DNA of 64,000 nt. It comes from Candidatus Fermentithermobacillaceae bacterium. GTDB lineage: Bacteria > Bacillota > Sulfobacillia > Fermentithermobacillales > DUSS01. Position numbers and translations under genes: made by a program. Below the pieces are notes generated by a model. It made no database searches. It saw only the letters and a list, made by a program, of their open reading frames with translations, and was not told where the DNA came from. The stretch is taken from contig DUSS01000004.1 of NCBI GenBank assembly GCA_012842495.1, positions 186,001-250,000 on the forward strand, written 5' to 3'. Shown here piece by piece: positions 19,498 through 24,660 of the stretch. Position 1 is the first letter of the stretch. The number at the start of each line of letters is the position of its first letter.

Positions 19498-20862
19498 CTA
19501 CTGCTTAGCCGCTTTCAGCGTGTCCGCTTTTACCCGGTGGAGGTCCGCCACCTTGGCCTTGATTTCCTGGAGCTTCTCCCCTTCAAGGGGATAGTGCCTG
19601 AGGATCAACAGGCCCAGGACGGTCGCGACTATCGGAATTGCGCTGCACAGAATCCGGAATCCCAACACCGCCGTGGTAGGTTGCGCCTCCACGGGGAGAT
19701 TGGCGTTGTATTTGCTCCACGCAAATACCAGCCCCATTATGAGGGAGTTCAACGATATCCCAAGCCTGATTACAAGGGCATTAGCACCGAAGTACATTCC
19801 CTCGCGGCGCCTACCGGTCTTCAGCTCGTCCTCATCGACCACGTCGGCAAGCAGGACATCGAAAAGAACCATGGCCCCGGCAAGGCCGACGGCGAGGATC
19901 ACCACTGCGACGATCCCCTGAATGAAGTTGGTTATGAAGGAGAACGGTATGAGAAACACGGCCCACCAGGTCATGGCCATCTGCATCGCCTTCTTCGGTC
20001 CGATCCTGGCGATGAACTTGCCCCAGACAGGGATTAGAGGAAGAGCTACTACGAAGATGGCACCGAGGAGATAGGTCGTCTGGTCTGGCGTAGCTTTCAA
20101 CACGTACTTCGCGTAGAAAGGCAGCGCCGCCGTGAGAGCCGTGAACGTGTACTGCAAAAGGAAGCACGGTCCGATGTAAGTAAGAAAGGACTTGTTAATG
20201 AGGGTCGCCTGTATGGCTTCGAAAACACCGAGCGAGGGCTCCTGTGAGAACTCCGGGTGCTCTTTGGAACCTAAGAGCGAAGCGTAAAGCGTAACACCTC
20301 CCAGGACCGCATAGATCCCTCCCACCACCGGCCACCCTATCCGTCCGGCTAACGCCGGAACCGCAGCTATCCCCAGCATCAAGCCGGGGATGCCCAGCAC
20401 CTGTCTTAGCGCCGAAACCCTGGACCTATCCTCGAGGGATGGGTACATCTCGGGGAACAGCGCTGTCCAGTTCAGAATCGCTATCGTCCAGAACCCGTCA
20501 AAAAGAAAGATCAGTACAAAATACCAGATAAACAGGTTGTACGGCTGCGTTGTGGGGAACGGGGGGGCCCAAAAACCCCAGAACGCCAGCGCCATCGGTA
20601 GGCCGAATATCGCGATATACGGGATGCGTCTTCCCCATTTGGTGCGGGTCCGATCCGAGAAGTAACCGAACAACGGGTCGTTTATGGAGTTCCATATGCC
20701 GTAGAAGAACATGGCCAGGCTGATGAGGTGCGGTGGAACTTTGAGCACGTCAACGTAGTAAAAGATGGCGTGCGTGCCCACGGCGTTCCCGGTAATAGCC
20801 GCGCTAAACGAACCGAGACTGTATACAAAGTCCTGAAACCGCGTGGTACCGCTTTTCTCCAT
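19498..20862 (-). CDS. MFS transporter of the GPH (glycoside-pentoside-hexuronide:cation symporter) family
   Basis: FFYGIWNSINDPLFGYFSDRTRTKWGRRIPYI, ALFPEMYPSLEDRSRVSALRQ, DVVDEDELKTGRRREGMYFGANALVIRLG are GPH hallmarks. Confidence 0.93.
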   Translation of the reverse strand: MEKSGTTRFQDFVYSLGSFSAAITGNAVGTHAIFYYVDVLKVPPHLISLAMFFYGIWNSINDPLFGYFSDRTRTKWGRRIPYIAIFGLPMALAFWGFWAPPFPTTQPYNLFIWYFVLIFLFDGFWTIAILNWTALFPEMYPSLEDRSRVSALRQVLGIPGLMLGIAAVPALAGRIGWPVVGGIYAVLGGVTLYASLLGSKEHPEFSQEPSLGVFEAIQATLINKSFLTYIGPCFLLQYTFTALTAALPFYAKYVLKATPDQTTYLLGAIFVVALPLIPVWGKFIARIGPKKAMQMAMTWWAVFLIPFSFITNFIQGIVAVVILAVGLAGAMVLFDVLLADVVDEDELKTGRRREGMYFGANALVIRLGISLNSLIMGLVFAWSKYNANLPVEAQPTTAVLGFRILCSAIPIVATVLGLLILRHYPLEGEKLQEIKAKVADLHRVKADTLKAAKQ

Positions 20863-21241
20863 GCTAGCCCTCCCCTTTGACTTCTCTCAAACCGATCCTC
20901 CAACGGTTAAACAGTTCTCTACCGGGCTTTTGGGTGCCCCCCAGGAAGACTCTATTTACCCCCTCTCTGAGTCGCCCTGACCGGACGCCGGTTACCCTTG
21001 CTTTTCATCCGGCCAGCCAGCGGATGACCTCGCTCTTCAGCAAAACCTGCGCCCAAAATCCTTTGAGACCCATTCGTTGATGGAGGAAACCGGACTGTCC
21101 CCTCGAATATGACGGGGTGGAAGTTCTTCCGTAGCGGGCGGAACTCCTGCACGCATAGCTTCAAACCGTTTCAGAAGGGCGATTTCGAAGCTTTGAGGCG
21201 GAGCGGCTAAGAATCGTAACAACTTAAAGGGGATGAACTAA

Positions 21242-21997
21242 GTGCACGCTAAAGACCTGATACCCATTCCGAGACTGCTTTCTGCCAAAAACGTCCTGGT
21301 CATATTCCCGCATCCCGACGACGCGGAACTGGCGGCGGGCGGTACCATCGCCCTTCTGACGAGGAACGGCGCGTCGGTAACGTATGTTTCGGCCACCGAC
21401 GGGTCGCTGGGAAGCCTCGACCCCGGTGTCACTCCGGAACAGATGGCAGAAGTGCGAAAGAAAGAATTGGAGGCCGCCGCCGAAATCCTTGGGGTGAAGG
21501 AAATCATCTGGCTGGGATATAAAGACGGGTATGCCCCGGAACCCCCGGAAATGAGGCCGAAAATGGTGAGCATCATCCGGAGGGTCCGGCCGGACTTCGT
21601 GATCACGCTCGACCCGTGGCTGGCTTACGAGGCCCATCCCGACCACCGGAAAGTATCCATGGCTGCGGTTGAAGCTTGCATGTACGCAAGCTTCAATCAC
21701 GCTTACCCGGAGGATCGAGAAAGAGGCCTCGAACCCTGGTCTGTGACAGGGGTGGCGCTGGGCCTTACTCCAGCTCCCAATACCTTCGTGGACGTGGGGT
21801 CCACCTGGGATACCAAGATCGAAGCTATCCTGTGCCACAAGTCGCAGTTCCCGGAGCCTATCTGGAATCAGGTCTCGCCTTACATGCACCTGAAAGCCCA
21901 GGAGTACGGCAAGGAAATCGGCAAGGAGCTGGCCGAGCCCTTCAAGGTGCTCAGCCTGATGCACCTTCACGTAAACATCGACACATGGAGAAGCTGA
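21242..21997 (+). CDS. PIG-L/LmbE-family deacetylase
   Basis: NVLVIFPHPDDAELAAGGTIALLTRNGASVTYVSATDGSLGS (PHPDDxE), DPWLAYEAHPDHRKVSMAAVEAC (HPDH). Confidence 0.95.
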   Translation: MHAKDLIPIPRLLSAKNVLVIFPHPDDAELAAGGTIALLTRNGASVTYVSATDGSLGSLDPGVTPEQMAEVRKKELEAAAEILGVKEIIWLGYKDGYAPEPPEMRPKMVSIIRRVRPDFVITLDPWLAYEAHPDHRKVSMAAVEACMYASFNHAYPEDRERGLEPWSVTGVALGLTPAPNTFVDVGSTWDTKIEAILCHKSQFPEPIWNQVSPYMHLKAQEYGKEIGKELAEPFKVLSLMHLHVNIDTWRS

Positions 21998-22078
21998 AAC
22001 CCAGACCACCCAGCCTTTAGCAGCTCCAGCGAAAAGCGGCCGGGTTAGTAGCTCACCCAGAACTGGAGGGCGACCGTC

Positions 22079-23395
22079 GTGAAAAACATCAAAGTCGTGG
22101 TAATAGGAGGGGGCTCCTCGTACACTCCCGAGCTTCTCGATGGAGTAATCCGACATTGGGAAGCCGGCGAATTCTTCGCCGGGGAAGTTGTCCTGGTGGA
22201 CATACCCGAGGGACGCGAGAGGGCCGAGGTCATCGCGGAATTCTCCCGCAGGATGATGAAAAAGCGCGGTATGCCGTCCACGGTCCGGGTATCCCTCAAC
22301 AGGAAAGAAGCGCTGGACGGAGCGGCGTTCGTGATAAGTCAGATCCGCGTAGGCGGAATGAAGGCACGAAGATCTGACGAACACCTGCCCATCAAGTACG
22401 GCGTCATCGGGCAGGAAACAACGGGTCCCGGCGGATTTGCCAATGCGCTGCGGACCATTCCCGTGGCCCTGGAAATCGCGGCAGATGTGAAAGAAAAATG
22501 CCCCGACGCATGGCTCCTCAACTTCTCCAACCCGTCGGGCCTTGTGACCGAGGCACTCATCAAACATGCCGATGTGAAGACCTTCGGCCTCTGCAATGTA
22601 CCAATAAGCATAAAAATGGCCATCGCCCAAGCTCTTCACGCGGACCCGGCCAAAATCAGGCTGGATGTGATGGGTCTCAACCACCTATCCTTCGTCACTC
22701 ACATCTACCGCGACGGAGAAGACATACGCGACCTCTTGTTTTCCCGGGCCTTCGTCGGGCATATCACCAAGGCAGCTAAGCTTAGACCGGAAATGGGCCG
22801 CTTCCTCACGAGGTTGAAAGCGATCCCTTCCCCTTACCTTCAGTATTACTGGCTGAGGCGACGGACGGTGTCCGAGGAAGAAAAGGCGGTGGACAACGAG
22901 GGTACAAGAGCTGACCAAGTTATGCAGATAGAGGAAGAGCTATTTGCTCAATACAAGAAGCCCGGTGTGGATGAGCTGCCCGAAGCTTTGAAAAAGAGGG
23001 GCGGCGCCTGGTACTCGACGGTCGCTCTTGATTGCATATCTGCGATACTCAGGAACGCGCCGCATTTCGAGGCTCTGAATGTGCGAAATAACGGCGCCAT
23101 TCACGAGCTTCCTTCTGACTGTGTGGTGGAGATTACCTCGGTCGTAGACGGAAAGGGTCCCACTCCGCTTCAGCTCGGTTCCCTTCCCTTGGAGATCAGG
23201 GGTCTCGTTCAACAGGTCAAAGCATATGAGGAGCTCACGGTGGAAGCTGCCGTTCGCGGAGATGTGGAGGCCGCCTTCTTCGCCCTCCTCAATCACCCGC
23301 TGGTCGGCGACGCAGAGGTGGCCTTCGACCTTCTCAAGGACATCCTCGAATCCAACCGGGAGTTCCTACCGCAATTCGAAGGCAAAAAACTTTGA
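22079..23395 (+). CDS. Glycoside hydrolase family 4 (6-phospho-beta-glucosidase-type, NAD/Mn-dependent)
   Basis: KVVVIGGGSSYTPELLDGVIRH, VISQIRVGGMKARRSDEHLPIKYGVIGQETTGPGGFANALRTIP, FGLCNVPISI (Cys) and VMGLNHLSF (His) metal ligands. Confidence 0.95.
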   Translation: MKNIKVVVIGGGSSYTPELLDGVIRHWEAGEFFAGEVVLVDIPEGRERAEVIAEFSRRMMKKRGMPSTVRVSLNRKEALDGAAFVISQIRVGGMKARRSDEHLPIKYGVIGQETTGPGGFANALRTIPVALEIAADVKEKCPDAWLLNFSNPSGLVTEALIKHADVKTFGLCNVPISIKMAIAQALHADPAKIRLDVMGLNHLSFVTHIYRDGEDIRDLLFSRAFVGHITKAAKLRPEMGRFLTRLKAIPSPYLQYYWLRRRTVSEEEKAVDNEGTRADQVMQIEEELFAQYKKPGVDELPEALKKRGGAWYSTVALDCISAILRNAPHFEALNVRNNGAIHELPSDCVVEITSVVDGKGPTPLQLGSLPLEIRGLVQQVKAYEELTVEAAVRGDVEAAFFALLNHPLVGDAEVAFDLLKDILESNREFLPQFEGKKL

Positions 23396-23560
23396 ACTAG
23401 CTAAGGTTCAATCTAGCGGGGTTGTTGTTCGAAGGTTGAAGACTTGCGGGAGGGTTGTGTTTCGGCAGGAAGGTTTCGGCGTCAGGGTCATGTCTCAACA
23501 GAAACGCCGGTTCCGGTACACCAGGGGCACTTCGCACCAGGTTTGTTTTGAACGGATTTT

Positions 23561-24595
23561 ATGAGAATGGAGGGGAAGGTCGTGAAGTTCGCGTTGGGAG
23601 TAGACGGAGGGGCCACCAAGACTATGGCCTGCGTCGGTGACGAAACCGGAAGGGTGATGGGAGTCGGTCTGGCAGGTCCGTCCAACTACCAGCTCACCGG
23701 CATCGAGTACGCCATGAGTTCGATATCTAGCGCCGTCAACCAGGCTCTGGAAATGGGGGGACTTCCGCCCGAGAAGCTCCACCACGCGGTGTTCGCTCTC
23801 GCCGGGGCCGATTTCCCGGTGGATTTCGAGACGTTTACAAGGGCCATCAAAAAAGCCTATCCCGGCCTGGATTTCAGGATCGTGAACGATGTGTGGGCTG
23901 CTTTCAGAGCGGGAACCCCTGAATCTATGGGCGGAGTCGTGATCTGCGGCACGGGTTCCAACTTCGGAGCGGTGGGTCCCGACGGCCGGCAGGTGACCGG
24001 AAGAGGCATGGGATACGAGTGGGGAACTCGGGGAGGTGCAGGTGACATCATTCGCGATGCCATTCACTACGCCTTCAGGTCTCATGACGGGACGGGTCCC
24101 AAGACCGCCCTGGAGGCGACGGTCCTGAACCTCCTGGGATTCCCTTCATACGATGCGCTGTCCCTGTTCATGTACGAACATAAGGCCGAGTTGGGCGCCA
24201 TATACGTAAAAGCTGCCGCGATAGTCCCCGCCGTGTTTCAGCTGGCCTCGGAGGGGGACGCGATATCTCAGAAGATACTCATGGACTCGGGAACGGTGAT
24301 GGGCGAAATCATCGGCGGAATGATGGAGAGGCTCGGAATGCGCTCTGTGAGCGTGGACGTAGTGACGGCAGGCAGCATATTCGTGAAAGCACAAAACCCC
24401 CTCATGAGCGACTACTTTAAAGCCGCCGTACACCGGTTCATACCCTTCGCAGCTTTCAGGCTTCCCGACATCGAGCCCGCCGGAGGCGCGTTCTTGATGG
24501 CCCTGGAGGACATGGGCGTTCGCGCTGACGGAGACGTCAGGGACAAAGCTATTGAAACCTTCCCTTCCATCGAGGCGCCGGAGATGTCTCTGTGA
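23561..24595 (+). CDS. BadF/BadG/BcrA/BcrD-type kinase (N-acetylglucosamine kinase-like)
   Basis: FALGVDGGATKTMACVGDETGRVMGVGLAGPSNY, VICGTGSNFGAVGPDGRQVTGRGMGYEWGTRGGAGDI. Confidence 0.92.
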   Translation: MRMEGKVVKFALGVDGGATKTMACVGDETGRVMGVGLAGPSNYQLTGIEYAMSSISSAVNQALEMGGLPPEKLHHAVFALAGADFPVDFETFTRAIKKAYPGLDFRIVNDVWAAFRAGTPESMGGVVICGTGSNFGAVGPDGRQVTGRGMGYEWGTRGGAGDIIRDAIHYAFRSHDGTGPKTALEATVLNLLGFPSYDALSLFMYEHKAELGAIYVKAAAIVPAVFQLASEGDAISQKILMDSGTVMGEIIGGMMERLGMRSVSVDVVTAGSIFVKAQNPLMSDYFKAAVHRFIPFAAFRLPDIEPAGGAFLMALEDMGVRADGDVRDKAIETFPSIEAPEMSL

Positions 24596-24605
24596 GAAGC
24601 AGCTA

Positions 24606-24660
24606 GGGTCGCTCTGAACCACCTCCACAGGTGGAACCGGAGCGACCCGGCTCTTTTATA
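24606..24660 (+). terminator. Rho-independent terminator after kinase gene
   Basis: gggtcgctc (tgaaccacctccacaggtggaacc) gagcgaccc with nested ccacct/aggtgg stem, followed by cggctctttta. Confidence 0.6.

Follow-up and report, generated by a model that had tools for sequence, protein, structure and literature searches.

A candidate module for chitobiose-type disaccharides that works independently of a phosphotransferase system, with a BadF-family kinase beside a GH4 glycosidase

Genes and predicted enzymes of the locus

The locus described here lies in a stretch of 64,000 nucleotides (hereafter the window) of contig DUSS01000004.1, positions 186,001 to 250,000, from the genome of a heat-loving Candidatus Fermentithermobacillaceae bacterium (GCA_012842495.1; G000 in our sample). 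It contains a candidate catabolic module that may operate independently of the phosphoenolpyruvate-dependent phosphotransferase system (PTS). The open reading frame (ORF) list and Pfam searches returned the four genes at the positions, on the strands and in the families given by the original prediction: a GPH/MFS_2-type symporter on the minus strand (19498–20862) and, on the plus strand, a PIG-L/CE14 deacetylase of the diacetylchitobiose deacetylase (Dac) type (21242–21997, start GTG), a predicted GH4 6-phospho-beta-glycosidase (22079–23395, start GTG) and a BadF-family sugar kinase (23561–24595). All Pfam matches were far above their cut-offs (MFS_2, 3e-71; PIG-L, 2e-34; Glyco_hydro_4, 1e-51; Glyco_hydro 4C, 1.7e-52; BcrAD_BadFG, 8.9e-29). 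The last three genes are co-directional and the symporter gene diverges from them across 379 bp (20863–21241), matching the roughly 380 bp claimed. The clear terminator reported behind the kinase was also recovered, as a Rho-independent terminator of the deacetylase-GH4-kinase operon at 24601–24652 on the plus strand, with a predicted RNA fold of -35.2 kcal/mol (z = -7.0) followed by the T-rich tail UUUUAU. Inspection of the sequence suggested that the true kinase start is probably the GTG at 23582, behind GAGGGGAAGG.

The best PDB matches of the PIG-L protein were Pyrococcus diacetylchitobiose deacetylases (5e-59 to 1e-53), the next best match being at 6e-24, which places it nearer to Dac than to BshB, MshB or LnmX (5e-59 versus 6e-24 and weaker). 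The zinc triad H24, D27 and H135, together with D26, H132 and the C-terminal H243, is present and conserved in 14 relatives. In Dac of P. chitonophagus the C-terminal His259* comes from the neighbouring subunit, and the enzyme deacetylates GlcNAc2 (GlcNAc, N-acetylglucosamine) at the non-reducing end only and is less active on GlcNAc (PMC9779004). The protein is specifically Dac-like, and its sequence predicts activity on GlcNAc2; PIG-L by Pfam and Dac-like by PDB matches, it has a fold different from that of YdjC/ChbG, as had been proposed. An identity as the bacillithiol enzyme BshB was rejected because the PDB matches favour Dac and the BshB1 model scored below cut-off.

The GH4 protein carries the N- and C-terminal GH4 domains (PF02056 and PF11975), has 1s6y as its best PDB match (1e-125) and shares 45% identity with a Geobacillus 6-phospho-beta-glucosidase, 38% with BglT and 36% with Escherichia coli ChbF. 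ChbF requires GlcN6P-GlcNAc (GlcN6P, glucosamine 6-phosphate), is inactive on GlcNAc6P-GlcNAc and has a -1 subsite made up of C172, N150, H203, Y258, T113, E112, R96, R282 and N173 (PMC13197890). The window enzyme has an equivalent of each of these nine (C172, N173, H202, N151, Y253, T114, E113, R97 and R277), including the Cys/His metal ligands, with ChbF Y258 mapping to Y253. The phospho-type residues R90, R97, Q112, E113, N173 and P175 are absent from the non-phospho enzymes MelA and LplD, and R90, R97, Q112 and E113 are invariant among 30 kinase-linked GH4s. Phylogenetic analysis (this and the other trees are quick trees) placed the protein inside the 6-phospho-beta clade of ChbF, BglT and the Geobacillus enzyme, apart from MelA, LplD and GlvA (BglT-including fork 96%; outgroup branches long). 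A function as alpha-galactosidase or galacturonidase, the outcome that the proposed phylogeny was to guard against, was rejected on the active-site residues and the tree, despite a best NCBIfam match, below cut-off, to PRK15076 (alpha-galactosidase). The complete phospho-type -1 subsite predicts an NAD+- and metal-dependent 6-phospho-beta-glycosidase, which would cleave GlcN6P-beta-1,4-GlcNAc.

The symporter scored 240.7 against Pfam MFS_2 (cut-off 27) and 170.4 (5e-50) against the NCBIfam gph model TIGR00792, whose curated cut-off is 231. Its divergent position is kept in genomes G001, G236 and G282; in G391 the gene lies about 6 kb off. Promoter and operator motifs in the 379-bp divergent region were at chance level, and only short imperfect repeats were seen.

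Conservation of the gene set and exchange of PTS for kinase

All four genes occur at 90–94% protein identity in the nearest named relative, Candidatus Fermentithermobacillaceae metagenome-assembled genome (MAG) Bu31, of the same genus. The set recurs in other Bacillota, as Dac-GH4-kinase in G236, G391, G282 and G372 and as Dac-GH4 in six genomes of the genus labelled g60, and its conservation in other families and classes, for which a check had been called for, indicates that the arrangement is not due to chance. Neither Enzyme I nor a permease component (EIIC) over cut-off was detected in any of the 12 genomes examined from other genera, these ten included. As the ten are 93–99% complete, a chance miss of the PTS in all of them is unlikely, and their possession of the gene set without Enzyme I or EIIC argues that the module is independent of the PTS. 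Enzyme I was present in 158 of 399 genomes sampled across the phylum. Searches for chbG gave no match at the loci of G001, G236, G391 and G282 or at L093–L094. GH18 domains, looked at as possible chitinase context, were found in 7/7 genomes, mostly as partial matches in proteins of ~500–600 amino acids, as in spore and cell-wall hydrolases, and are therefore uninformative on chitin use.

The earlier statement that there is no PTS gene holds at the locus, where no chb-type PTS genes (ChbBCA) were found, but not genome-wide: the window's genome encodes Enzyme I and two PTS permeases, a Lac/Cel-family and a Gat-type EIIC, both away from the locus. The former belongs to a cluster on contig C66 (G000:C66:26000-39041, L010) with the order IIA-SIS-IIC-IIB-DUF7916 and a sigma-54 activator, in which the IIA resembles chitobiose/lactose IIA and the double-SIS protein resembles NagB-II/GlmS (GlcN6P-deaminase-like). 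The Gat-type EIIC and a IIB are encoded with SIS, NagA, PfkB and class II aldolase proteins (G000:C11:82000-97000, L172), in what looks like an N-acetylgalactosamine/galactosamine pathway. G002, a 90% complete MAG, has an EIIC over cut-off, and Enzyme I was not detected in it.

A scan of ~85,000 species genomes with a GH4 alignment yielded the best 80 loci, selected by similarity to the Dac-linked GH4, whose neighbours were read within 7 kb or to contig ends and identified by tblastn/HMM matches. An adjacent BadF kinase was found at 24 of these loci and chb-type PTS genes, often with ChbG, at 40, and no locus had both (Fisher p = 8e-10, uncorrected for relatedness). In the GH4 tree the kinase-linked enzymes form two groups: one is the clade of the window enzyme, the other a clade of Paenibacillaceae that nests within PTS-linked enzymes. 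A single clade of kinase-linked GH4s was rejected by the approximately unbiased (AU) test (p-AU 0.003), the group being defined by neighbour genes and the tree having been seen before the test. Kinases of a single type are partnered with two lineages of GH4, and the PTS seems to have given way to such a kinase on at least two occasions.

The AlphaFold model of the kinase (pLDDT 91) has the hexokinase/MurK/NAGK fold, and the fold, the BadF ATP-binding motifs and the catalytic Asp (D110) are shared with GlcNAc/N-acetylmuramic acid (MurNAc) kinases of the BadF family (MurK, 8zo3; human NAGK, 2ch5; NagK SO3507). Unlike these, the window kinase lacks the sugar-pocket motif GGWG...GDEGSxY, a segment that we take to be sugar-contacting in NAGK, and has RGMGYEWGTRGGAG; in the GH4-partner group other residues stand in place of the motif's Trp, Glu, Ser and Tyr/Phe. 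At the position of M150, Trp is found in 15/16 monosaccharide-type versus 0/34 GH4-partner kinases, at G159 Ser in 16/16 versus 3/34, and at G161 Tyr/Phe in 16/16 versus 3/34. Such large-to-small changes would suit a larger substrate. In the kinase tree a branch with 99% support separates the kinases of both GH4 groups from MurK, NAGK, hexokinase and the peptidoglycan-recycling kinases. At several Paenibacillaceae loci the kinase ORF and the GH4 ORF share 4 bases, and in the operon L096 a GntR-type regulator and NagB stand directly ahead of GH4 and kinase, which points to GlcN6P as product.

Further copies of these families were seen elsewhere. A second, MurK-like BadF kinase of the window's genome lies in a peptidoglycan-recycling cluster of NamZ, kinase, SIS/MurQ-like and GH3 genes that is conserved in the group (L178, L179, L180); the SIS/MurQ-like ORF in G000 is fused to a beta-lactamase-fold domain (740 amino acids). 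Its second GH4 (G000:C2:4965-6263; L013, L002) has a CDEP motif, not CNVP, is set apart from ChbF by a long branch and adjoins a 1070-amino-acid ORF, alpha-mannosidase-like by eye, an arrangement conserved in G001 and G002 (G002:C41, L014). In G236 an extra, 38% identical GH4 lies just past the GPH gene (L045:9110-10444), so that two GH4s flank the module, and the GH4 of G391 (L046:7257-8579) has a local frame shift with one stop between intact parts, from sequencing error or decay. Two loci, L049 and L057, pair a Dac-like gene with a GPH gene and have neither GH4 nor linked kinase; the former has a GntR/FCD regulator, 2-hydroxyacid dehydrogenase and TIM-barrel protein as neighbours, which suggests a different pathway for both families.

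Proposed pathway and alternatives

We propose, with a probability of about two in three, that the four genes make up a PTS-independent module in which Dac, kinase and GH4 would act in that order to break down a beta-linked N-acetylglucosaminyl disaccharide, N,N'-diacetylchitobiose being the most likely one. The GPH symporter is presumed to import the unphosphorylated disaccharide, which Dac would deacetylate to glucosamine (GlcN)-GlcNAc. The BadF kinase would then use ATP to phosphorylate the 6-OH of GlcN, giving GlcN6P-GlcNAc, as suggested by the exchange of PTS and kinase, the kinase phylogeny and the conserved GH4 active site. GlcN6P-GlcNAc would finally be split by the NAD+/metal-dependent GH4, whose -1 subsite indicates the substrate class, into GlcN6P and GlcNAc. 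With slightly less assurance, we favour the existence of a separate subfamily of BadF kinases that adds phosphate to O6 of GlcN-GlcNAc and that, at least two times, took over from the PTS as the partner of ChbF-like GH4s, in anaerobic Bacillota/Chloroflexota and in Paenibacillaceae. The core of the original prediction, a chb-like pathway operating without a PTS, is supported by the conservation of the gene set, the GH4 tree, the Dac-like deacetylase and the relatives without a PTS, with the substrate a predicted one. Of the two roles that it had left to the kinase, the pocket residues, the PTS/kinase exchange and the L096 operon favour action on the disaccharide over action on a released monosaccharide.

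Several observations weigh against this proposal. The test of kinase/PTS exclusivity ignores relatedness, and the loci were sampled by similarity to the Dac-linked GH4. Enzyme I and EIICs are encoded in the window's genome and in G001. Many kinase-linked loci (Paenibacillaceae, L096, L099, L102, L104 and L123) have no deacetylase nearby, so the substrate there may be another beta-disaccharide, and the module probably serves more than one. Furthermore, the related kinase of g60 is not beside GH4 but in a nagB-nagA-kinase-MurQ-like cluster, which makes a monosaccharide role possible there. At L088 and L089 of this genus (G051:C5, G183:C2), nagB, nagA, a MurK-like kinase and a GH4-partner-type kinase occur together, with the MurQ-like gene seen in G183 and Dac-GH4 elsewhere.

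It is also conceivable, if unlikely, that the GH4 no longer needs a 6-phosphate and cleaves the GlcN-GlcNAc made by Dac directly, the kinase acting only on released GlcN or GlcNAc, as after archaeal GlmA. BadF kinases known so far do act on monosaccharides (nearest folds hexokinase, MurK and NAGK), and archaeal Dac pathways cleave unphosphorylated GlcN-GlcNAc (PMC6566704). However, the phospho-type -1 residues are all kept, R90, R97, Q112 and E113 do not vary in the kinase-linked GH4s, the kinase pocket is unlike that of the sampled monosaccharide kinases, and the peptidoglycan-recycling cluster of the window's genome already provides another, MurK-like kinase. The PTS-fed pathway also leaves free GlcNAc, yet the kinase is beside 0/40 PTS-linked GH4s, which argues for the disaccharide over a mere salvage role.

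We give a little less weight still to the same chemistry acting on another GlcNAc-beta-glycoside, for example a disaccharide from peptidoglycan or a fragment of an N-glycan core. Dac and GH4 constrain the -1 sugar and not the reducing-end sugar, an amidase/glucosaminidase lies upstream in L104, and g60 kinases stand beside a MurQ-like gene; against this, the nearest characterised deacetylases are chitobiose enzymes and the genome has its separate NamZ-kinase-MurQ-like-GH3 cluster for peptidoglycan. Import and phosphorylation of the disaccharide by the C66 Lac/Cel-family PTS, with the kinase taking the released amino sugars, appears very improbable. Enzyme I is present in this organism, and the IIA and SIS proteins of C66 have the likenesses described above, but the gene set is kept in G236, G391, G282 and G372 without Enzyme I or EIIC, in G002 an EIIC occurs without a Dac-type GH4, and neither a GH4 nor a deacetylase is encoded in the C66 cluster. 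A sigma-54 link of the locus to the C66 PTS regulator was rejected, since a scan of the locus found no site above chance.

Relation to known pathways and implications

With the E. coli chb operon (ChbBCA, ChbG, ChbF) the locus shares a ChbF-type GH4 with the same -1 subsite, removal of the acetyl group from the non-reducing GlcNAc ahead of cleavage and the predicted intermediate GlcN6P-GlcNAc. It differs in having a symporter and kinase in place of the PTS and Dac (CE14/PIG-L) in place of ChbG (YdjC), and in a predicted order of deacetylation, then phosphorylation; with neither PTS nor ChbG, the locus falls outside the chb operon family. The Thermococcus/Pyrococcus chitin pathway (Dac and GlmA) likewise uses a Dac-type deacetylase on chitobiose unphosphorylated at import, whereas the locus has a phospho-type GH4, not the GH35 enzyme GlmA, and phosphorylation is predicted before cleavage. 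The Klebsiella kinase BglK belongs to the ROK family, unlike the BadF kinase of the locus, where the sugar is an amino sugar. In PMC10628242, which cites Thompson 2002, BglK is a beta-glucoside kinase used with a GH4 6-phospho-beta-glucosidase, and it resembles the proposed enzyme as an ATP-dependent kinase that phosphorylates a glycoside for a phospho-glycosidase to cut. A search of the open literature, which does not cover subscription papers, found neither a Dac-GH4-kinase module nor a chitobiose kinase described before. The locus would thus combine the logic of the E. coli chb operon with an archaeal Dac and a BadF kinase in the role of the PTS, the predicted disaccharide kinase being the new enzyme activity.

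If correct, this would account for the function of 6-phospho-glycosidases in bacteria without a PTS, and would add a new kind of substrate, a disaccharide, to those of the BadF kinases, along with a recognisable pocket signature. It would also provide a rule for re-annotating 'N-acetylglucosamine kinase' genes that adjoin GH4 genes in Bacillota and Chloroflexota, and would link two chitin pathways thought to be separate, that of archaeal Dac and that of enterobacterial ChbF.

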